Shown: positions 7,032-44,852 of the stretch, piece after piece
Position numbering within the stretch: the stretch's first letter is position 1
Layout: every line of letters begins with the position of its first letter
Source: a virus
Virus record (IMG/VR): IMGVR_UViG_3300028275_000006
Span: 124,001-188,000 of that record
Direction: 5' to 3' (one strand)
Length of the DNA: 64,000 nucleotides
The notes under the pieces: generated by a model
What the model saw: the letters and a program-made list of their open reading frames with translations, nothing else
Database searches by the model: none
Told to the model about the DNA's origin: nothing
Program-made: the position numbers and the translations under genes

Positions 7032-7446
7032 AAATTCTATTCTGAAACACACTAACCAACTACCAGAAGCATTTATAATGCCGTTATTCGGTTCGAGCTA
7101 ATGTGTTTTAGAATAGTGCTAACGCTGAGATTATACGTTAGCCAATAGTGCCTCTAGCATTATAGTCAGCCTTGCGAGCCAACCTTCTCTAGACATCCAC
7201 ATAAGCCATTACTGTACCTATGTCCACTATCAGCATCGCCGTTTTTAAAGACAGGCAGTAGTCTTGTCGCCATATGCTATTCTACGCTATCTACTCCGTT
7301 GACCTTGCGAGCCATTCAGCGGCGCTAACCACTTACGAAACTTCCAGCATAAACAGATTTCACCTTGCGAGCTACGTCTGACTCGATTACCTTGCGGCTC
7401 GAGTATTAGATGCTTTTCACATATGACCGAGGCAGTCTTTGCATTT
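7032..7446. other. Structured non-coding spacer
   Basis: No gene is seen. CTATTCTGAAACACACTA (7036-7053) is mirrored with two mismatches by TAATGTGTTTTAGAATAG (7100-7117). GCTAACG/CGTTAGC forms a hairpin at 7118-7142. Four CCTTGCG(A/G)G copies occur at 7170, 7303, 7363 and 7390. Confidence 0.6.
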
Positions 7447-7521
7447 TATAATCGATAGTTGGGATCGAACCAACAGTCCATTGCTTAAGAGGCAATTGCG
7501 TTACCATTACGCTATATCAAA
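7447..7521 (-). tRNA. tRNA-Lys(CTT), weak acceptor stem, no CCA
   Basis: The anticodon arm is perfect (ATTGC CTCTTAA GCAAT), as are the T arm (GTTGG TTCGATC CCAAC) and D arm. The acceptor TTTGATA/TATCGAT has one mismatch and a G-T, and the 3' end reads ATA rather than CCA, so CCA must be added. GAGGCAG (7429) and CTGCCTC (7536) bracket the gene. Confidence 0.75.
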
Positions 7522-8171
7522 CCTACCGCGATGAGCTGCCTCTGTTGCTCAATAACCTTTTGGATTACTGAATACAACTCACCACATACCTTTTGTCTCG
7601 CGGACTACTCAGTGATATTTCACGATCAATGTCCTGCATCAAAACAGTCCACTAACCATTAATATTGCATACAAGCCCTTAGGAGCGACCCCTTGGACAA
7701 ATACACTACCCTTTCTCATACCAATTCGCAAGTTGGTTTTGTTAGGAAGTCAGCACCACCCGTTACTTTTCATGCACCCTGGTTCCCTTGCGGGCCAGTC
7801 GATACACATTCTTTCCCTAACACTTGCTTCATTGTTACATCCACCGGTCTTCTCAGTGAACGCTACCTCGCGGTAGTGAGCAGGCTTGTTTACATGAACC
7901 ATTACTGGCGGAGTTGCGTAGGCTTACCTCCTTTGGGTTGATCACTCAACTTATTCTTCGTCAACGGCGAACCGCCAACAGGATAATAAACTACCCTTAA
8001 ATTTTTACCATTAAAAAATAACATTACACCCTATGGGATGAAACGTATTTCTGAGTGGAGTTCGATTCTCCTCATAAGCCATTGTTCACGGTTTTCTCAG
8101 AAGGGTAAGATGGCCTTATCCTTCATAAGTCTATGCGTCCATAGACGATACCCGTCAATGCTATTTCTTAA
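7522..8171. other. 650-base non-coding spacer
   Basis: No supported gene. Hairpins include CCAA/TTGG around a TTCGCAAG loop (about 7722-7738) and CTACC/GGTAG around TCGC (about 7864-7877). A plus-strand T-arm-like sequence with CCA (8054-8083) looks like a tRNA remnant without a matching 5' half. One CCTTGCGGG copy lies at 7787. Confidence 0.55.
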
Positions 8172-12595: not shown

Positions 12596-13135
12596 TCAAA
12601 GAGTTTCGCCGCCTACTGTACGGTTACAAGCGCACAACTCACCAGTTTGTAGCGCATCAAGAATACGTAAAGTTTCTTCTGGGCTACGACCAACGTTCAA
12701 GTTGTTGACAGTAACGTGCTGGATAACGTTCTCTGGGTCAACAATAAATGTAGCACGTAGAGCCGCACCTGCTGGAGCATAAAATACACCCAACTGCTCA
12801 ATCAATGACAACTCGCCACGCTGTGTGTCTGCAAATTGTGTATGTGTAATTTTCTGTAAGTCTGGGTGTGCTTTTTGCCATGCGATTTTACAAAACTCGT
12901 TATCTGTGCTACCTGTTAGCAATACTGCGTCACGGTCAGCAAAGTCACCTGCTAGTTTATCGTAGGCTACAATCTCTGTAGGGCAAACGAATGTGAAGTC
13001 CTTTGGGTAGTAAACGATTACTTTCCACTTGCCAGCAAAACTTTCATCTGTAATGTCAAAGAAAGCATCTTCTGGTTGTCCTGGCTTAACACCAGTAATT
13101 GCGAATTTTTCTAATTTATGTCCAACTGTTTTCAT
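12596..13135 (-). CDS. ahpC: Peroxiredoxin AhpC
   Basis: The 179-residue protein is a 2-Cys peroxiredoxin: peroxidatic Cys51 in FTFVCPTE, and C-terminal Cys168/Cys170 in GELCACNRTVGGETL as resolving residues. This arrangement, with two C-terminal cysteines, is that of AhpC proteins that work with AhpD rather than AhpF. It detoxifies hydrogen and organic peroxides in the cytoplasm. AAGGAGAAACAA precedes the ATG. The TTGATT-18-TATAAT promoter upstream should drive the three-gene operon. Confidence 0.95.
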   Translation of the reverse strand: MKTVGHKLEKFAITGVKPGQPEDAFFDITDESFAGKWKVIVYYPKDFTFVCPTEIVAYDKLAGDFADRDAVLLTGSTDNEFCKIAWQKAHPDLQKITHTQFADTQRGELSLIEQLGVFYAPAGAALRATFIVDPENVIQHVTVNNLNVGRSPEETLRILDALQTGELCACNRTVGGETL

Positions 13136-15926: not shown

Positions 15927-16000
15927 TGGTGCGCTAGACAGGAATCGAACCTGCTATCGGGAGTTTAGAAGTCCCTGCCTATCCATTGAGCTTCAAGCGC
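15927..16000 (-). tRNA. tRNA: Arg(TCT) or amber-reading CTA
   Basis: GCGCTTG/CTAGCGC acceptor, T arm GCAGG TTCGATT CCTGT, CCA encoded. The best-paired anticodon stem (GGGAC/CTCCC, four Watson-Crick pairs) leaves loop TTCTAAA, giving anticodon CTA. Shifting one base gives CTTCTAA (TCT, Arg) with a poorer stem. A solitary gene far from the main array. Confidence 0.7.
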
Positions 16001-20552: not shown

Positions 20553-21632
20553 TTAAAAAGCGTCCCAGTAAGAGTAAGTCTTCTCTTTAACTTTGGTAAG
20601 GATAAGGCTTGCACCTTCCTTGTTAGTGAACACGTACTTGGTACCATTGTCATCAATCTTCTTCAACTCGTCCGGAGTGAATCGGATACCCTGCCAATCC
20701 CAATCTTCGTCACCAGTTTCTTCGTCACGTTCAATAACCTTGTAAGAAATGTTGACATTCTTGTTAAGAGGATTGCCTTCCCATTCCTTGTCTTCAAAAT
20801 TGTTTTCTTTGACTTCTTCGCCATTGATAACCAACTTGATTGCATAACGAGAAGTCGAACCGTATTCTGGTTTGGCATTCAGCATAGTCATTGCTTCCTG
20901 CGGAGTTTCGTCGAAACGATTCATTTCTTCAACCAATGCCTTCAGCATGTCAAAGTTGAATTGGTCAAACGTACCAGCAATACCTACAATCTTTTCAATG
21001 TGTTCTTTGTTTTGAAGATTGTCCATGCAGTATTCACGAATGAAGTCTGCATCCAAGCCCTTATACTCAAGGCTGTAATAAACACGACCAGGACGATTAC
21101 GCATATGGCTATTAACACGCCATTTGTCGTTACAAGTAAGCACAAACAACTTTTTGGTTGGGTACACACCGTCCAGCAGAGTCAGCATCTGTTCTTGCTC
21201 GTGTTCATCATAGACTTTTTCAAATTCATCAAACACTACAATTACAGGTTGTTCAATACTTTGAATGAACGCATTGAATTGGTCTCCACACCAAGGAGCA
21301 TTGATTACAATAGTAGGAATACCTTTGTCATATCCCTTGACAGAAAGCATCTTAGCCAATAGTGTTTTGCCAGAACCTTTTTCACCAGTAAGCATTACGC
21401 CAGTAGTACTGGGACGATCCTCAAACGCATAAAGAATACGGTCGGCACGTTTGTTTGTATCGCCGTAAATCTTGCCTTTGATTTCGAACTTGTCAATTGT
21501 TTCAAGAAACAACTGCCCAGACATCTCGTCCTTTTTAACGACATAGTTACCAGCCGGCAACTTCTCTTGAATATCAAGTGCTTCTTTTTTGGATACTCGG
21601 TAAGTGCTACCTTGCTTTAGGAAATAGGTCAT
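20553..21632 (-). CDS. AAA+ ATPase
   Basis: The 359-residue protein contains Walker A GEKGSGKT (about residues 82-89), Walker B VIVVFDEFEK, a sensor-1-like FVLTCND, and an arginine-rich NRPGR segment. The AAA+ fold is followed by a C-terminal extension (residues 260-359) of strands and acidic residues ending SYWDAF. Similar predicted ATPases occur in large T4-like phages with unknown substrates; remodelling of protein complexes is the general expectation. Own promoter and terminator. Confidence 0.85.
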   Translation of the reverse strand: MTYFLKQGSTYRVSKKEALDIQEKLPAGNYVVKKDEMSGQLFLETIDKFEIKGKIYGDTNKRADRILYAFEDRPSTTGVMLTGEKGSGKTLLAKMLSVKGYDKGIPTIVINAPWCGDQFNAFIQSIEQPVIVVFDEFEKVYDEHEQEQMLTLLDGVYPTKKLFVLTCNDKWRVNSHMRNRPGRVYYSLEYKGLDADFIREYCMDNLQNKEHIEKIVGIAGTFDQFNFDMLKALVEEMNRFDETPQEAMTMLNAKPEYGSTSRYAIKLVINGEEVKENNFEDKEWEGNPLNKNVNISYKVIERDEETGDEDWDWQGIRFTPDELKKIDDNGTKYVFTNKEGASLILTKVKEKTYSYWDAF

Positions 21633-21668: not shown

Positions 21669-21697
21669 ATTATAGGCTCGGACAGGGCATCTGTCAA
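21669..21697 (-). promoter_or_regulatory. Consensus sigma70 promoter for AAA+ gene
   Basis: TTGACA (21692-21697), 17-base spacer, TATAAT (21669-21674). Confidence 0.88.
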
Positions 21698-21711: not shown

Positions 21712-21737
21712 TAAAAAAGGGCCCGAAGGCCCTTTGG
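21712..21737 (-). terminator. Terminator after tmRNA
   Basis: AAAGGGCCTTCGGGCCCTTTTTTATTTT on the minus strand (GC stem, TTCG loop, T tract), the same stem sequence as the terminator at 13271. Confidence 0.92.
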
Positions 21738-21739
21738 TT

Positions 21740-21938
21740 GTTTGGGTTACAAGGTAAGTCCTACCCCGGAGTTGCAGTTTCTTAGGCTGCTACTAGACCA
21801 TTGTCGGCTGTGAAGCCTTCAACAGTGAAGTACTCAAATGTAGATGCGTTTGCATTTACTAGTTTTGCTTGATTTACGGTCATCGCCTACCGTGTTGCCG
21901 TCTCTACTATCTACCCCTGTCGAAACCATGGCAGGCCC
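21740..21938 (-). ncRNA. ssrA: tmRNA coding piece (permuted ssrA, 5'-half)
   Basis: Starts with GGGCCTG, which pairs with CAGGTCC of the acceptor piece to rebuild a 7-bp tRNA acceptor stem, followed by the near-invariant ATGGTTTCGACAGGGG block. A tag reading frame lies at 21782-21853: 23 codons, GCA AAC GCA at the resume site and a C terminus of GLVAA before TAA. Short hairpins (ACGGTAGGCGATGACCGT) fit the pseudoknot region. The order acceptor piece, spacer, coding piece is that of circularly permuted two-piece tmRNA. The 3' end is approximate. Confidence 0.9.
21782..21853 (-). CDS. tmRNA proteolysis tag
   Basis: 23-codon tag, ANAS...ADNGLVAA, ending TAA. The hydrophobic Leu-Val-Ala-Ala end resembles ssrA degrons recognised by ClpXP and ClpAP (E. 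coli ends LAA). It starts at GCA after TAGTAAAT, the usual place of the resume codon. Confidence 0.85.
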   Translation of the reverse strand, partial: ANASTFEYFTVEGFTADNGLVAA

Positions 21939-22000
21939 ATCATAAAAACACAATACCAAAGTAAATTTACAATGAATACCAAAGTAAATTTATGTCCTTA

Positions 22001-22075
22001 TGGTGGACCTGGCGGGAGTCGAACCCGCGTCCAGAAGTCCTTCGCTTTGAAGGGATTACAACAATTCTTTAAACG
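22001..22075 (-). ncRNA. ssrA: tmRNA acceptor piece (permuted ssrA, 3'-half)
   Basis: Contains GGACGCGGGTTCGACTCCCG (T arm GCGGG TTCGACT CCCGC) and ends CCAGGTCCACCA with encoded CCA. In the gene it precedes the coding piece, separated by about 60 bases. The upstream boundary is approximate and lies next to the stop codon of the 22069 gene. Confidence 0.88.
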
Positions 22076-22647
22076 CCTGCCTTTGCTAATGTGCCAAATA
22101 TCCAAGGTTTTGGATCTAAGTCAATTGTCCAAGATGTCGGTTCATTTCTCATATCTTTTTTGTACACAATATTTATTTGGTCGTGTGTTAGTTTGACTAA
22201 GAAGCCGTCTGTTAATTGTTTTAGATTAGCCTTAACTGTTGCGTAATCTACAAAGGCAACAGCGAATGTTCCTTTAATTTGGACTATCATTAAATGATTA
22301 AAAACTTTGTCTAGTGTAGTTCTTTGATTCTTACTTTCGTAAACATTTTTTAATTTAAGACTGATTGTCTTTTTAGGAGTTCCTGACTTTGCGTAGAACA
22401 AAGGTTCGTTGCCAGTTTTAACTTCTACGTCGCCATTGGTCCAATCGGTAAATTTTATATCGTAATCGCGAACGTCAGTCCACTCGATGTTCTTTTTATG
22501 ATTAGATAATTGCATTGCCGCAATAATGAATTTTTCTTTCATCATTCGATTTGTGGATTCATTTAATACTGTCTGATGACAGATGTTATTACAAGCATCT
22601 GAAAACTTGTCAATATCTACCCAATCTAAAAATTCATTGTACTGCAT
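22069..22647 (-). CDS. Hypothetical protein, possible nuclease fold
   Basis: The 192-residue protein has DYDIKFTDWTNGDVEVKTGN, where D...ExK spacing hints at a PD-(D/E)xK nuclease core, but the match is weak. A ISLKLKNVYESKNQR segment follows. Its stop abuts the tmRNA acceptor piece. No family is recognised with confidence. Confidence 0.68.
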   Translation of the reverse strand: MQYNEFLDWVDIDKFSDACNNICHQTVLNESTNRMMKEKFIIAAMQLSNHKKNIEWTDVRDYDIKFTDWTNGDVEVKTGNEPLFYAKSGTPKKTISLKLKNVYESKNQRTTLDKVFNHLMIVQIKGTFAVAFVDYATVKANLKQLTDGFLVKLTHDQINIVYKKDMRNEPTSWTIDLDPKPWIFGTLAKAGV

Positions 22648-23126: not shown

Positions 23127-23506
23127 TGTGCTACTTCCTCTTTTGCTGGCTCTTCTGCCGGTGCTTCTGTATTTACTTCAGGCTTAGGAGCTCTTGCTTC
23201 AAATCCACTGAGTAAGTTGGCTCTTGCAGTTTGGACTATTGTATCTAATTCTGCATCACTAACACGACCTCTAGTAAATTCTTTTAGTACATCAGCAAAG
23301 GCCGCCCCAACTACTGCGGCAATATCTGCTACTGTACCAATTGGCTTGCCTTCATTATGTTTTACTAATACTGCGGTTCTGCCATAGATGAAATGCTGAA
23401 TGTCGCGATCCAATGTTACTAGTACATCTGGTGTAGGATCGTTCATTAACTCCTTGAGCATATGAGCGAATGTTGCTACATCGCGTTTGATTTCTTTTTT
23501 ATCCAT
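23123..23506 (-). CDS. Hypothetical helical protein
   Basis: 127 residues: two helical segments (residues 1-30, 50-100), then an Ala/Pro/Glu-rich tail (NTEAPAEEPAKEEVAQ). Coupled to the histone-like gene by a TAATG overlap. No family is recognised. Confidence 0.66.
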   Translation of the reverse strand: MDKKEIKRDVATFAHMLKELMNDPTPDVLVTLDRDIQHFIYGRTAVLVKHNEGKPIGTVADIAAVVGAAFADVLKEFTRGRVSDAELDTIVQTARANLLSGFEARAPKPEVNTEAPAEEPAKEEVAQ

Positions 23507-23706
23507 TACTTACCTGCGGATTCTTTACGTTCGTTCTTTACTGCGGTTACATCGTTACGAACTTCTTTACATAGTTTGGCTAACTCTTGTAAGTGCTTGC
23601 GAACACGAGTACCTGCGGCATTAACACCCTTGTCATAGAACTTTTCAAAGTCACCTTCTGCGGCTTCGATTAGTTTTGAAAAATCTTGAAATCTGTTTGT
23701 TGCCAT
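23506..23706 (-). CDS. Histone H1-like (Hc1-type) DNA-binding protein
   Basis: The ATG at 23706 follows AAGGAGAAACATT and gives a 66-residue protein. Its pattern, FSKLIEAAEGDFEKFYDKG, NAAGTRVRKHLQELAKL, matches the short bacterial histone-H1/Hc1 domain (x-D-x-E-K-F-Y-x-K-G-x-x-A-A-G-T-R-x-R-K). Such proteins bind DNA and occur in chlamydiae, other bacteria and large phages. It might compact phage DNA or affect the host nucleoid. A longer frame upstream overlaps a zinc-ribbon gene and is not used. Confidence 0.85.
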   Translation of the reverse strand: MATNRFQDFSKLIEAAEGDFEKFYDKGVNAAGTRVRKHLQELAKLCKEVRNDVTAVKNERKESAGK

Positions 23707-23738
23707 AATGTTTCTCCTTGTTATTATGTTTATTACTT

Positions 23739-23906
23739 TTAGCCAACTTGGCTGGGCTTTTCTGGCCGTGTAGTACAGAATTGACACTCTGGATCCTTGC
23801 ACGGTTCTTCTAGCCACTTATTACACAACTCGCAAAAATACGCATCGTACTTGTTGCTATATTGTTTCTCACTTTCACAGACAGGACACTTATAACTTAT
23901 GTCCAT
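23739..23906 (-). CDS. 55-residue zinc-ribbon protein
   Basis: Begins inside the end of the 23897 gene (10-base overlap). Cysteines are spaced as CPVC, CELC, then EPCKDPECQFC, enough for one or two zinc sites. Small zinc-ribbon proteins often bind RNA polymerase or nucleic acid; here function is unknown. Confidence 0.7.
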   Translation of the reverse strand: MDISYKCPVCESEKQYSNKYDAYFCELCNKWLEEPCKDPECQFCTTRPEKPSQVG

Positions 23907-24871: not shown

Positions 24872-25435
24872 CTATACTATATGATCCGCTACCCCAAAGT
24901 CAACCACTTCTTGTGCAGTTAGGTAAACATCGCTGGCTGGTAGTAGTTTTGCTTTAACTCTACTTTTAACCAAGCCTGTTGTTTCGGTTAGAATTGTTAT
25001 CATCTTTTCATTTAACAATTCGGTTTCTTTCATTTCTGCTTTTAGGTCGTGATACTTAGCATCCATTCCGGATGTAAATTGGTGACACATAAAACTAGTA
25101 TTACTAGCCGCATAACGATGCTTTTTATCACCGCAGGCAAAAATTAAAAATGCCGCACTCATGACAGCACCAATTCCAATAGTTCTTACAATATGTGGAC
25201 TGCTACGCATTACATCAATTAACGCTAGAGCCTGATACAAATCTCCGCCCGTGCTGTTAATATACAAGGTCAAAGTTCTACCTTCGCCTTGTAAATTTTC
25301 ATAGAGAATCCATTTGATGGCTTCGCCTACTGTATCTTCATCTATCTCTCCATTCAAATAAAAAGTAGAATTTTCCAGTAATCTAAGATCAATTCTATCT
25401 TCCGCATTGAACTCATCAATTTTTTTCATTTTCAC
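24872..25435 (-). CDS. clpP: ClpP-like serine protease
   Basis: 187 residues. Candidate nucleophile Ser93 (GAVMSAAF) and His118 (SFMCHQF) are 25 residues apart, as in E. coli ClpP (97 and 122). STGGDLYQALALID gives the oxyanion-side Gly-Gly. The sequence is divergent (canonical SMG/IHQP replaced by MSA/CHQF), suggesting altered partner recognition. It may form its own tetradecamer or mix with host ClpP. Overlaps the upstream gene by four bases. Confidence 0.88.
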   Translation of the reverse strand: MKMKKIDEFNAEDRIDLRLLENSTFYLNGEIDEDTVGEAIKWILYENLQGEGRTLTLYINSTGGDLYQALALIDVMRSSPHIVRTIGIGAVMSAAFLIFACGDKKHRYAASNTSFMCHQFTSGMDAKYHDLKAEMKETELLNEKMITILTETTGLVKSRVKAKLLPASDVYLTAQEVVDFGVADHIV

Positions 25436-25745: not shown

Positions 25746-25773
25746 ATTATAACACATTTATTTAACCTGTCAA
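25746..25773 (-). promoter_or_regulatory. Sigma70-type promoter for clpP operon
   Basis: TTGACA (25768-25773), 16-base spacer, TATAAT (25746-25751). Confidence 0.78.
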
Positions 25774-26966: not shown

Positions 26967-27671
26967 ATGTCAACAATTATAGCCACCTTGGTGATGGTTC
27001 AAATCACCATAGCCTGTGTTACCCTTTATCTTCATAGAGGACAAACACACAGAGCAGTAACATTCCATCCAGCAGTAAATCACTTCATGCGTTTTTGGCT
27101 TTGGCTTACAACAGGTATGGTTACCAAGCAATGGGTAGCAATACATCGCAAACATCATCAAGCCAGCGATACAGATTTAGATCCGCACAGTCCACAAGTT
27201 TACGGTATTAAAACTGTGCTATTCAAAGGCTGGAGTTTATATCACTCTGCCAGTAAAGATACCGCAATGGTTGAAAAGTTAGGAGTAGGTACTCCTGATG
27301 ATTGGCTAGAGCGTAATGTTTACACCCTACACAGCCGCCTTGGAATTCTCTTAATGTTAGTCATAGACTTATTGTTCTTTGGTCCTTGGGGTATTCTTGT
27401 GTGGGGCATTCAAATGATATGGATTCCATTCTGGGCCGCTGGTGTTATTAATGGACTGGCACATTGGTGGGGATATCGTAATACTGACACCAAAGACACT
27501 AGCCGTAACTTATGGCCTTGGGCTATTTGGATCGGTGGTGAGGAACTACATAACAATCATCATGCCGATGGGGCCAATGCTAGTTTCCGTCAACGTTGGT
27601 TTGAATTAGATATCGGTTGGATCTATATTAAGGTACTACGCTTCTTTAACCTTGCACAGGTTAGGAATTAA
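26967..27671 (+). CDS. Fatty-acid desaturase (DesC/delta-9 type)
   Basis: 234 residues with the three histidine boxes of membrane desaturases: His23-RGQT-His28, His60-RKHH and HNNHH near residue 198, interleaved with four hydrophobic helices. Members use a di-iron centre and O2 to insert a cis double bond in acyl chains of CoA, ACP or lipids. A phage copy could raise membrane fluidity of the host. It is the last plus-strand gene of the island and its end overlaps the convergent carboxypeptidase by 11 bases. Confidence 0.93.
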   Translation: MSTIIATLVMVQITIACVTLYLHRGQTHRAVTFHPAVNHFMRFWLWLTTGMVTKQWVAIHRKHHQASDTDLDPHSPQVYGIKTVLFKGWSLYHSASKDTAMVEKLGVGTPDDWLERNVYTLHSRLGILLMLVIDLLFFGPWGILVWGIQMIWIPFWAAGVINGLAHWWGYRNTDTKDTSRNLWPWAIWIGGEELHNNHHADGANASFRQRWFELDIGWIYIKVLRFFNLAQVRN

Positions 27672-28395
27672 CAGCAATAAACTCTGCTTCAGGAATACGT
27701 GTCTTAGTATTCTTACTTCCTAGTACTACTACAATTCTGCGTCCTATTTCTGTATCCAACATCATTACTATGCAACCTCCACTGGCTCTTATGTAGCCAG
27801 TTTTGCTGACAATAAATTCATGACGCTTGCCAATAATTGGATTAGTATTATTAAAGATAAACCACTTTTTCTTTATCTTAATTTTAACCTGCGGTGTGCG
27901 TGATGCTTCAATAATCTCTGCGTAGTTCTTTGCCGCTAGAACTAGTTTAATTAAATCAGTGGCTGTGCTTACATTAAACACACTAAGCCCTGTAGGTTCG
28001 ACATACTTTGTGTCGTGCATACCTAACAGATGTGCTTTAGTATTCATTGCTCTAACACAGGCATCCTTACCATTAGGATAGTATTGACACAGTAGATCAG
28101 CCGCTTTGTTGTCGCTGTGTACTAATGCTAGTTGTATTGTTTCGGCTCGGGTATACTTACCGATTTGTTCATCTAAGTTTTGATTAGCATCTAACACAAC
28201 CATTGCCGTCATTAGTTTAGTAATGCTGGCAATACTACGCTGTTGATCTATGTTTTCGCTTTGAATAATTCTGCCGGATTCATCGGCCACGAGCCAGCTC
28301 TGAGCGGTGATAGACAGAGGTTTGGCAGTGGCGGCGCTTGTTTGCCCATGATGTAAAAAGGCAAAAAATACCAATATAGATATAACTCTACACAT
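27661..28395 (-). CDS. D-alanyl-D-alanine carboxypeptidase (PBP5/6-like, S11)
   Basis: The 244-residue precursor has a signal peptide ending SAATA, then Ser57-Ile-Thr-Lys60 (SxxK), Ser94-Asp-Asn96 (SxN) and Lys198-Thr-Gly (KTG), the full serine-DD-peptidase set. It lacks the C-terminal domain and amphipathic anchor of E. coli PBP5 (403 residues). It would act in the periplasm, trimming pentapeptide stems. I chose the ATG at 28395, since the earlier ATG (28410) sits in the -10 box; the mRNA may then be leaderless. Confidence 0.88.
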   Translation of the reverse strand: MCRVISILVFFAFLHHGQTSAATAKPLSITAQSWLVADESGRIIQSENIDQQRSIASITKLMTAMVVLDANQNLDEQIGKYTRAETIQLALVHSDNKAADLLCQYYPNGKDACVRAMNTKAHLLGMHDTKYVEPTGLSVFNVSTATDLIKLVLAAKNYAEIIEASRTPQVKIKIKKKWFIFNNTNPIIGKRHEFIVSKTGYIRASGGCIVMMLDTEIGRRIVVVLGSKNTKTRIPEAEFIAVNS

Positions 28396-28401
28396 CTGTC
28401 T

Positions 28402-28430
28402 ATTGTACACTCTGCTATAATCTCTGTCAA
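28402..28430 (-). promoter_or_regulatory. Sigma70-type promoter for carboxypeptidase
   Basis: TTGACA (28425-28430), 17-base spacer, TACAAT (28402-28407). Predicted start is within a few bases of the ATG at 28395. Confidence 0.75.
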
Positions 28431-28431
28431 A

Positions 28432-30483
28432 TTATTTTTCATGTGCTATGAATTCACCATTCCAATTATCTGGAAGGTTCTGTTCTTTCATAAACTCGCA
28501 ACGTTCAATCCAGATTTTGTAGTACTTGTCCATTTGTCCACCAAAGTTGCCTTTTAGTTTTTTACACATAGCGGCTGCTTCGTCGAACTTCTTTTGTTTA
28601 TACAAGGCATGCATCAACTCGTGCTGTACTTTATCTTTACTGTAATCTTCACCTTTGGTTCTTAATGCTGTATAGATTAAGTCTGCTACAGTTTTGCCTT
28701 TAGGTTGTAAGTTATCTAGCATTAGATAGAAGAAGTCATCTTTAGTACGGTTGTAAGTTTCAGCACCGATGATACATAACACGCCATAGGCCTTACAACG
28801 TGCTTCTAAACGAGCGGCGGTTGAAACCATGTCACCTAAGATGTCGTAACTATGTCTGTCAGTTGATCCCATCTCACCAATAAAGCCAATACCTGAGTTA
28901 CAACCCCAACCCATTGCGGCTGGTGGTAAGCCTTGTGCTTCCATTAGTTTAGTATACTCATCAACAGCATCTAACATCTGTAAACCAACAGCAACAATAG
29001 TACGGGCATGATTAGGATCTTCAATCGGAGCACCGTGTATGTGCATACTTGCGTCACCTACATACTTTATGACCATACCCTTGTTGTCCATGATAGGCTG
29101 ACTAATAGCATCCATGTAACCGTTCATATACTTGCCTAATCCAGCAACATCATCACCGTAGTGTTCTCCAATGGGTGTAAAGCCACGCAAGTCACTGAAC
29201 ATAACGGATACGTCTTTACGCACACCACGCTTGATTAGGTCTGGATCTTTTTGTAGCATTTCTACTACTTCCTTACTACAGTATCCAGCGAACTGTTTCT
29301 TAATTGCCTGTTTCTGTAAAAACTCGCTTATAAACTTAACGCCATAACAATGAAGAGCAACGATAATAAGGCCAAACGCGATCGCAGTCGCGTCTCCCAA
29401 GACGAGCCAATTATTGAAAGCGTAGATAGTACCAGGAACGATGGCACCAACAATAACCACAGTAGCACCAATGCCAACATAAGTCCACCTCGATAAGAAA
29501 ATTAATAATATGCCAAGTGATACTAATGCTAAAATTTCAACCCCGTCGGCATAGTCGGGACGTTGAATAACAATGCCGTTAACCATTGTACCAATTACTG
29601 CGGCCTGCACTTCGTGAGGAAATACAGCACCTTTGCTTGTCGGTAACGGATTACTAATACCAGCGGCAGTAGGACCTACAATAACGACGGCGCCACCTAA
29701 ATCTTTTGGAAGTTTAACAGCACTAACGCTATGAGCTTCTTGGCTCCAATCGATCCAAATTCTTCCTAAACTATCTGTAGCAATAGGACCAAACTTTGGA
29801 ATACGCATTTTCTCAACGCCGCCTTCAAAAAGTTTTACTTGGAAGGTAGAGTCTCCTGCGGCGACTCTAAGTGTCTCTAAACTCAATGCTGGATATAATT
29901 TGCCGTCTACAGTAACAATTAACGGCATGCGGCGATTAACACCATCTACTTCTGGAAGTGTTCCTGTAATGCCAACACCTGCGGCATTTTGTTCTAGTTG
30001 AGGAACGTTGGCGATTAGTCCCGGGTATTGAATAATTTGATCTAGATGTTCTGGACCTAGTACAGCCGATCCTGGAACACGTGGTGTATTCTTTGTTTTC
30101 TGTGCTGGCGCACTTCCTAGTACTACAGGGAACTCTTTTAGAGTTTGTCCTAGCGCACCATCTCCACCAGTACGATCTGTCTCTGGCATAAGAACATTAA
30201 GTACAACAAGTCCTGCATTTCTTTGGTATAGTTCCTTCACAAGTTTAGCATATTCTGCTCTTGGTAAGGGCCACTGACCATATTTGTCTAACGTGGCTTC
30301 GTCGATATTTACAGTAACTATGTTGTTAACTGTAACTTCTTTACTTGTAATTAATGTGTCAAAATAACGTAGTCTTACGCTTTCAACAAATGTAGGATCT
30401 GCAACTCTGACACCAACAACTAGTGCTAGAGTTAGTAAAGCAGTCCATGGACTTACTAGTATTTTTTTGAATTGTATTTTCAT
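28432..30483 (-). CDS. CHASE2-domain adenylate/guanylate cyclase
   Basis: 683 residues: one N-terminal membrane helix, a periplasmic CHASE2 sensor (about 40-320; RYFDTLI, VNIDEATLDKYGQWPLPR), three membrane helices (about 325-400) and a class III cyclase domain (about 430-590). Metal aspartates are in FSDLRGFT and KYVGDASMHI; Lys of KYVGD and Asp of DILGD favour ATP. The transition-state Asn of GDxVNxAARLE is Ser here (GDMVSTAARLE), so activity may be low. CHASE2 cyclases often pair with FecR proteins in bacteria, as in this locus. Confidence 0.92.
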   Translation of the reverse strand: MKIQFKKILVSPWTALLTLALVVGVRVADPTFVESVRLRYFDTLITSKEVTVNNIVTVNIDEATLDKYGQWPLPRAEYAKLVKELYQRNAGLVVLNVLMPETDRTGGDGALGQTLKEFPVVLGSAPAQKTKNTPRVPGSAVLGPEHLDQIIQYPGLIANVPQLEQNAAGVGITGTLPEVDGVNRRMPLIVTVDGKLYPALSLETLRVAAGDSTFQVKLFEGGVEKMRIPKFGPIATDSLGRIWIDWSQEAHSVSAVKLPKDLGGAVVIVGPTAAGISNPLPTSKGAVFPHEVQAAVIGTMVNGIVIQRPDYADGVEILALVSLGILLIFLSRWTYVGIGATVVIVGAIVPGTIYAFNNWLVLGDATAIAFGLIIVALHCYGVKFISEFLQKQAIKKQFAGYCSKEVVEMLQKDPDLIKRGVRKDVSVMFSDLRGFTPIGEHYGDDVAGLGKYMNGYMDAISQPIMDNKGMVIKYVGDASMHIHGAPIEDPNHARTIVAVGLQMLDAVDEYTKLMEAQGLPPAAMGWGCNSGIGFIGEMGSTDRHSYDILGDMVSTAARLEARCKAYGVLCIIGAETYNRTKDDFFYLMLDNLQPKGKTVADLIYTALRTKGEDYSKDKVQHELMHALYKQKKFDEAAAMCKKLKGNFGGQMDKYYKIWIERCEFMKEQNLPDNWNGEFIAHEK

Positions 30484-42986: not shown

Positions 42987-44852
42987 TTAGTTTGTTTCCT
43001 TAAACTCGGCATTGATTGCATCTTCCTGAACAGGTTCAAATGGCTTGTCCTGTTTGGCCTGTGCAATCGCTTGACTGGCCACTGCTAGTTCGCTAGTCTT
43101 TTGTACGATAGCGTCTTTGTCAGAACCTGTCAATTCTGTTTGAAGTGCTTTAACAGCATCTTCGATCTTTGTTTTATCTGTGTCTGAAAGTGTTGTTTCT
43201 TTCATGTCGTTTTCAACATTGTTGATCAACGCCTCGGCTGTGTTCCTAGCATCGATAAGTTCACGTGCCTTCTTATCTGATTCGGCATTAACTTCTGCAT
43301 CACGAACCATTTGTTCGATCTGCTCTTTGCTTAGACCACTGTCACTCTTAATTGTGATTTGATTTTCTTTGCCGGTGTTTTTATCTTTAGCACTAATTTT
43401 CATAATGCCGTTAGCATCGATGTCAAATGTAACTTCAATCTGTGGAGTGCCACGACGTGCTGGAGCAATACCGTCTAACTTAAACTCACCCAGGAGTTTG
43501 TTGTATTGGAATAGTTCACGCTCGCCTTGTGCTACTTTGATATCAACTGCTGGTTGATTATCTTCTGCTGTGCTAAACACTTGGCTAGCCTTAGTAGGTA
43601 TAGTTGTGTTCTTTTGTACAAGTTTAGTAAACACACCTCCCATAGTTTCAATGCCTAGTGACAATGGTGTTACGTCTAACAATAGAACGTCTGTACGATC
43701 ACCTGCTAGTACTGAACCTTGAATAGCCGCACCAACTGCTACTGCTTCGTCTGGGTTAACGTCTTTGCGTGGAGCCTTACCGAATAGTTTTTCAACTGCT
43801 TCTTGTACCTTGGGCATACGTGTTTGCCCACCAACAAGAATAACTTCGTCAATTTCTGATGGAGTAACACCTGCATCCTTCATAGCAACCTTACATGGTT
43901 CGATACTACGTTGGATTAGTTCTTCTACCAATGCTTCTAACTTAGCACGAGTAATCTTAACATTCATGTGCTTAGGACCACTTGCGTCTGCTGTGATGTA
44001 AGGTAAGTTAACATCAGTGCTGGCACTGCTAGATAACTCAATCTTGGCTTTTTCAGCGGCTTCTTTTAGACGTTGTAAGGCCAACATGTCTTTCTTAAGG
44101 TTCATGCCTGACTCTTTCTTAAACTCGTCGACCAAGTAGTCCATAATACGTTGGTCAAAGTCTTCACCACCTAAGAATGTGTCGCCGTTAGTGCTTAGTA
44201 CTTCGATTTGTTTTTCGCCATCCACGTTGGCAATTTCAATGATCGATACATCGAAAGTACCACCACCAAGGTCATAAACAGCAACTTTGCGATCTGCTTT
44301 GTCGTTTTTATCAACACCATAAGCAAGAGCTGCCGCAGTAGGCTCGTTAATAATACGCAATACTTCCAAGCCTGCGATTTTTCCAGCATCCTTAGTTGCC
44401 TGTCTTTGGCTGTCATTAAAGTATGCGGGAACTGTGATAACTGCTTGAGTAACTTTTTCACCTAAATAATCCTCTGCTGTCTTTTTCATCTTACGCAGAA
44501 CTTCAGCACTAATCTGCGGAGGTGCTAATTCTTTACCCTGTGCGCGAACCCATGCATCTCCATTCTTGGATTCCATGATTTCGTAAGGCATTAGGTCAAT
44601 ATCTTTTTGTACAGCCTGTTCTTTGAACTTACGTCCAATAAGACGCTTGGCCGCATAGATTGTGTTTTTGGGATTTGTTACTGCTTGACGTTTAGCACTA
44701 GCACCTACAAGTACTTCGTCTGTAGAATAGGCAACAATACTAGGTGTAGTTCTTGCACCTTCGCTGTTTTCAATAACTTTGGAATTTCCTGACTCGATGA
44801 CTGCTACGCATGAATTGGTAGTACCCAAGTCGATACCGATGACTTTGCTCAT
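42987..44852 (-). CDS. dnaK: Molecular chaperone DnaK (Hsp70)
   Basis: 621 residues with [24 protein letters not shown] and [11 protein letters not shown] (ATPase motifs), the linker [13 protein letters not shown] and a substrate-binding beta domain; lid helices end FKETN, missing the E. coli EEVKD tail. Phage-encoded full DnaK is rare. No dnaJ or grpE lies nearby, so it probably uses host co-chaperones. Leader of about 80 bases with hairpin GGGCAGTTGCCC. Confidence 0.97.

Follow-up and report, generated by a model that had tools for sequence, protein, structure and literature searches.

A two-piece tmRNA of betaproteobacterial type in a jumbo phage encodes a long composite tag from a virus-typical family under purifying selection

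Why should a phage tmRNA encode a tag roughly double the usual length, and is the added stretch kept as a peptide? The locus that raises this question lies on the minus strand of a 64,000-nucleotide stretch of DNA (the window), positions 124001-188000 of a 212,542-base virus record and thus part of a jumbo phage genome no shorter than 212 kb; the same region occurs, with 100% identity over the 9.7 kb compared, in an IMG/VR contig 270,181 bases long. It is established that phages can carry tmRNA (PMC4131195, PMC7162821), two-piece tmRNAs had been reported in 53 phage genomes by 2021, 50 of them aquatic (PMC9004378), and the tmRNA database, which holds 79 phage sequences, gives 10 residues as the commonest tag length (PMC11915505). 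A first-pass annotation of the window considered a permuted form with a long tag unusual for a phage; this holds for the tag length, but the permuted form alone is not rare in phages, as the 53 genomes and at least 74 permuted loci in IMG/VR attest.

To establish the identity of the RNA, we combined covariance models, gene calling and comparison with relatives. The minus strand at about 22093-21691 is a circularly permuted (two-piece) tmRNA, called independently by ARAGORN as c[21691,22093]. The Rfam search proposed in the first-pass annotation returned RF04321 at 138.4 bits (E 4e-27; gathering threshold 47) and RF01850 (beta_tmRNA) at 129.4 bits (E 4e-39; gathering threshold 84), so that the detection is far beyond chance. 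The alphaproteobacterial and cyanobacterial models scored lower, at 50.1 and 40.9 bits; together with the ARAGORN call, these scores show that the RNA is real and of betaproteobacterial type, in line with the earlier hint that it might point to a host lineage. The extent first given, 21740-22075, covers the core, and about 22093-21691 is the better boundary. The elements of the gene and its terminator are as follows.

22001-22063, minus strand: acceptor piece, with the 5' strands of P2, the T arm, the 3' acceptor strand CAGGTCC and the encoded ACCA (ARAGORN 3' tRNA domain, RF04321 alignment from 22063, covariation)
21939-22000, minus strand: intervening segment, 62 nt (comparison with relatives)
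21740-21938, minus strand: coding piece, with the GGGCCTG acceptor strand, the GGTTTCGAC block, the P2 3' strands, the PK1 hairpin, the tag frame and a tail (ARAGORN, RF04321, covariation)
21782-21853, minus strand: tag frame ANASTFEYFTVEGFTADNGLVAA with its TAA stop at 21784-21782 (ARAGORN, RF04321 alignment; frame-specific purifying selection in the family)
21716-21735, minus strand: intrinsic terminator AAAGGGCC-TTCG-GGCCCTTT, GC-rich, then a T-rich tail (sequence)

The order recognized at the outset, an acceptor piece with T arm and CCA ahead of a coding piece bearing GGGCCTG and the conserved block, was recovered in full, with GGGCCTG starting at 21938 and followed by CCATGGTTTCGACAGGGG. 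As predicted, the two ends rebuild a 7-bp acceptor stem: GGGCCUG and CAGGUCC, from separate pieces, pair at 7/7 positions, ACCA is encoded and ends at 22001, and the stem includes the alanine identity pair G3-U70 (present in 101/117). The coordinates originally assigned to the tag frame ending GLVAA are exact, stop codon included, and give 23 residues; the strong terminator noted after it is the GC-rich element at 21735-21716. The resume codon, GCA at 21853, stands in the canonical TAAAT/GCAAAC context and falls where the beta model places resumption. The 5' end of the mature acceptor piece is a predicted one, the 3' end of the coding piece, whose tail carries a GGTA...TACC hairpin, is uncertain, and the intervening segment is presumably taken out by processing; its length (26-268 nt) and sequence differ among relatives, as would be natural for a spacer that is removed. 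The window's spacer holds the direct repeat TAAATTTACTTTGGTATT, that of locus L329 a seeming small open frame (ATGGAAAAG...TAG) with an AAGGA-like ribosome site, and that of L334 a seeming small frame, also with an AAGGA-like site, whose CxxC-type peptide continues into the coding piece.

In the tRNA-like domain and P2/PK1 of the window's RNA, 30 of 31 pairs are canonical. For 54 distinct long-tag relatives the model's pairing is canonical at 91% of cells, compared with 37-52% for slid partners, and 17 of the 31 pairs show compensatory change. The coding strand folded alone (z -1.4) is uninformative, since half of the helices need the other piece. The RNA resembles the betaproteobacterial two-piece tmRNA (RF01850, merged into RF04321; PMC11915505) in gene order, G3-U70 acceptor stem, T arm, P2/PK1, resume context, terminator hairpin and degron-like end; it differs in residing in a phage without smpB and in encoding a tag of 23 residues instead of 10. 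The tag departs from the short-tag norm, yet a short tag is not a defining property of the RNA family.

How general are such tags? We scanned IMG/VR with a pattern keyed to the T arm and CCA alone, without selection on the tag, which yielded the at least 74 permuted loci mentioned above. Tags among the loci listed fall into lengths of 10-14 residues (at least 48 loci) and 23-32 residues (at least 26 loci), with none of 15-19 residues. More than 50 long tags were gathered in all. Most begin with an N-terminal box, ANA(D/N/S)TF(D/E/K)(F/Y), and finish with a degron-like segment that in many cases nearly reproduces a Burkholderiales host tag, as in locus L033 (...NDEQFAIAA), compared with ANDEQFAIAA in bacterial locus L336. 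The subfamilies include ANADTFDFSAMSFTGNTV... (26-31 residues), ANANTFKFMQVDFDISAMNDEEFAIAA and kin (27 residues), ANANTFKFFEVPASVA...ANAERFELAA (28 residues) and the window's own, ANASTFEYFTVEGFTADNGLVAA with variants in L329, L136, L169, L332 and L334. A motif scan of viral contigs for the N-terminal box returned at least 120 stretches; among the matches listed, 88 have the GGTTTCGAC block no more than 110 bases upstream, and about 20 further ones are apparent long tags ending in A. A tree of the tag-free part requires 11 changes (shuffled mean 29) and has low support, so that the long tags are clustered and do not form one clean clade; we therefore rejected a single origin. We also rejected derivation of the tag from a phage protein, as the searched parts of the phage genome (G000) gave no convincing match.

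Outside uncultured viruses, long tags are scarce. The N-terminal box, searched in 84,980 GTDB species genomes with a pattern that excludes the window's TCT codon 4, gave 96 matches, none in a tmRNA. In tblastn searches, the window tag and one SAM-type tag found no tag match in 50,697 phage records, and the SAM-type tag found none in plasmids. Among the Burkholderiales loci fetched, 29 of 30 encode tags of 8-10 residues, and the N-terminal box plus spacer occurred in 0 of 11 sampled permuted Burkholderiales tmRNAs with tags of about 10 residues. The one exception is L347 (L347 / L488 9811-10171, minus strand), an additional permuted tmRNA with a 28-residue tag, GNQPSNLQVMQQFDVPTPANGDQYLNVA, that lacks the box; the 5.3-Mb genome that carries it also has a standard tmRNA with the tag ANDENYALAA, and its neighbourhood consists of ordinary chromosomal genes. 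Long tags are thus not strictly confined to viruses, and the family is found almost only in uncultured ones. In the open-access literature searched, neither a report of the family nor its tag strings were found.

Among described phages, methylophage Melnitz and pelagimyophages (PMC9004378) likewise represent aquatic phages with a permuted tmRNA; that of Melnitz is of alphaproteobacterial type with a glutamine riboswitch, whereas the window's, of beta type, has a composite long tag, and Rfam at its gathering thresholds called no riboswitch there. Xanthomonas phage XacN1 (L003) is closer, being a jumbo phage with a permuted tmRNA and the box ANANTFDY, but its 12-residue tag, ANANTFDYALAA, fuses the box straight to ALAA and lacks the spacer of the window tag. 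The L211 tag, ANADTFETFALAA, is a similar short form with the same box and no spacer. Separately, one-piece tmRNAs of other phage lineages (L025, L027, L031, L057, L067, L103, L121) have tags of 18-30 residues, for example AKNNLPTVASNDSDFHMAIAA and ANNIVRFEDFTACGEELALAA, which suggests that tags have lengthened convergently in phages. Another long tag of the one-piece kind is that of mycobacteriophage Bxz1.

To determine whether the extension is maintained as a peptide, we compared substitutions in and out of frame. The tag frame, extension included, is under purifying selection in the long-tag family. In-frame pN/pS is 0.18 in SAM-31 (17 sequences), 0.36 in SAM-28 (20), 0.37 in PASVA-28 (6) and 0.42 in SAM-26 (4); window-type tags give 0.29-0.37, a weak estimate from only three sequences each, and over the final ten codons the ratio in the window's own group of three is 1.54. 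Frames +1 and +2 of these same groups yield 0.97-5.6. For the extension by itself the values are 0.15-0.44 in most groups (SAM-28 0.19, SAM-31 0.23), the last 10 codons of SAM-31 give 0.11, and MQV-27 (three sequences) stands apart at 0.78 overall and 3.5 in the extension. The third-position excess has p of about 1e-4. Codons 1-5 (GCA AAC GCA GAT/AAT ACA) are near-invariant even at synonymous sites, suggesting an RNA constraint at the resume site, and part of the conservation of the N-terminal box may be of this kind. Codons 6-18 vary synonymously while their amino acids are kept; at least these codons are therefore selected as peptide.

These results bear on two alternative views of the extension. 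The long tag could act exactly as a host tag does, with only the last few residues mattering and the extension being either a neutral spacer or a property of the loop at the RNA level; the degron pattern retained at the C terminus, the fixation of codons 1-5 at the DNA level and the variation of the extension between subfamilies would all accord with this. We consider it unlikely because the extension is constrained in frame and about neutral or faster out of frame (pN/pS about 1 or more), because codons 6-18 change with their amino acids kept, and because the long tags form a length class of their own (22-33 residues, with none of 15-19). Alternatively, the resume codon may have been miscalled, such that only the last ~10 residues would be translated as the true tag, and nothing upstream of them. 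Several relatives do end in a complete host-like tag (e.g., ANDSRFALAA); nevertheless, the match of the window's resume context to the beta-model position, the frame-specific selection on the extension and the lack of an internal AND-type restart in the window tag make this reading barely credible.

We next consider the proteins that might act with the tag. SmpB is absent from G000 (0/1) and from 50 related records (0/50), with control genomes positive, so host SmpB must serve if the RNA is active; the SspB adaptor (PF04386) was found in 0 of 30 records. Absence of SmpB would also be expected if the phage tmRNA merely competed with host tmRNA for SmpB or stalled ribosomes, as does the tag-less tRNA-like domain of mycobacteriophage DS6A, reported to inhibit endogenous tmRNA (PMC4131195, PMC11915505). 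A pure competitor needs no tag, whereas here the tag frame is complete, its resume context and stop are conserved and it shows purifying selection; we regard competition as a decidedly improbable explanation.

The phage itself encodes Clp proteins. A 746-residue ClpA-type double AAA+ protein (G000:67475-69715) contains Clp_N, two AAA+ domains, a GYVG motif and a VIGFG sequence corresponding to the IGL/IGF loop that docks ClpP; its TIGR02639 score of 885 bits lies below the model's curated cut-off of 993, making it a ClpA-type relative and not a certified equivalog. A canonical ClpP of 207 residues (221 bits) is encoded at G000:106296-106919, and a divergent ClpP gene shares the strand of the tmRNA and lies upstream of it. 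The features upstream are as follows.

25746-25773, minus strand: sigma70-like promoter, 12/12 (TTGACA-16-TATAAT with TG; consensus match alone)
24872-25435, minus strand: divergent ClpP-family serine protease, 187 residues (PF00574 3.6e-33; PDB ClpP 3.3e-21)
22069-22647, minus strand: 192-residue protein directly upstream of the tmRNA (no Pfam, PHROG or NCBIfam match)

These belong to a co-directional gene string with the promoter at its head, the divergent ClpP second and the tmRNA and terminator at its end. The order ClpP, 192-residue gene, tmRNA recurs in L169, L329 and L330, where the 192-residue protein keeps its place at 77-83% identity. The catalytic triad of the divergent ClpP (S93/H118/D169 in its numbering) is invariant in 82 aligned sequences, namely this protein, 80 loci related to it and the canonical ClpP of the phage; an AlphaFold model of the protein alone was poor (pLDDT 51) and was set aside. 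The divergent ClpP occurs in 11 of 26 long-tag and 2 of 24 short-tag records (Fisher p 0.009, ignoring kinship and record size). We do not claim that it is specific to long tags; short-tag tmRNAs also lie within 8 kb of it (L457, L458, L460, L463-L465, L468). Among records above 150 kb, ClpA accompanies 6 of 7 long tags and 5 of 10 others, which is not significant (p 0.30). The AAA ATPase at 20553-21632 was likewise rejected as a tag unfoldase, having weak AAA similarity and its own promoter past the terminator; it was not found adjacent to the tmRNA in L169, L329 or L330. That promoter, a second 12/12 sigma70-like match (21669-21697, minus strand), lies directly past the terminator of the tmRNA and precedes the genes for the AAA ATPase, RIIA and RIIB. 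In two IMG/VR contigs with a short-tag tmRNA (G331, G349), a ClpX-sized AAA_2 protein of ~400 residues lies about 4-5 kb from ClpP; both also have a ClpA-type protein, so some phages may carry ClpA, ClpX, ClpP and tmRNA together.

ClpA and ClpP are similarly phage-encoded in jumbo phage Atu_ph07 (PMC6102473) and in a survey of such phages (PMC7824862); unlike here, both sources treat them without reference to tmRNA, and Atu_ph07 is listed with no tmRNA (PMC11242549). Because these genes are common in jumbo phages, some reported without tmRNA, a functional link between Clp and tmRNA is something we infer, and the association may be coincidental.

Other features of the window are recorded here as observations in their own right. 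A GOLLD RNA (207 bits, 7122-7585, minus strand) with an embedded tRNA-Lys (7449-7522) lies among about 33 arrayed tRNA genes, all within the window. An amber-suppressor-type tRNA (15927-16000, minus strand, anticodon CTA; named tRNA-Pyl by ARAGORN) is also present; we rejected an associated recoding of TAG, which ends only 3 of 149 phage genes and interrupts none, and the tRNA may affect TAG-terminated genes of the host. Further protein genes are listed below.

12596-13135, minus strand: AhpC-type peroxiredoxin (auxiliary gene)
23506-23817, minus strand: Hc1 histone-like protein (auxiliary gene)
26967-27671, plus strand: fatty acid desaturase (auxiliary gene)
27661-28410, minus strand: D-alanyl-D-alanine carboxypeptidase (auxiliary gene)
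28432-30483, minus strand: large protein, phrog_35576, function unknown (E 2.5e-185)
42987-44852, minus strand: large protein, phrog_22485, function unknown (E 5e-275)

We propose that the locus is active in trans-translation, drawing on host SmpB and adding a composite tag, the extension being kept as a peptide for altered engagement in degradation, and we put the probability of this reading at roughly three in four. Cleavage of the precursor would yield two RNAs, acceptor and coding, that remain paired; the tRNA-like domain would be charged with alanine and use host SmpB; and the charged tmRNA would enter stalled ribosomes, on which translation would resume at GCA on the 23-residue tag. Three parts would make up this tag: at the N terminus the phage-typical box (ANA-x-TF-(D/E)-(F/Y)), next a spacer, and at the C terminus a degron whose final residues are a small one followed by AA. 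The most likely reason for selection to keep the extension would be an effect on which machine takes up the tagged protein for degradation, or on the manner of its uptake, with host Clp proteases and the phage ClpA with ClpP as candidate machines. A more specific version, possible but doubtful, is that phages have evolved a tag code of their own: phage ClpA, working with the canonical or the divergent ClpP, or else a hypothetical phage adaptor that binds the box, would recognize the extended tag, and proteins rescued during infection would enter a degradation path owned by the phage and separate from that of the host.

Permuted phage tmRNA is known; what is new is a large family of composite tags that is virus-typical and under selection, so that a widely used marker, tmRNA, proves to have a virus-typical class not found in the cultured phage records searched. 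Selection has kept a 13-20-residue extension as a peptide ahead of a degron-like, often host-like end, which makes the tag itself, beyond ribosome rescue, a possible target of the phage. The long tags may thereby supply natural two-part degrons.
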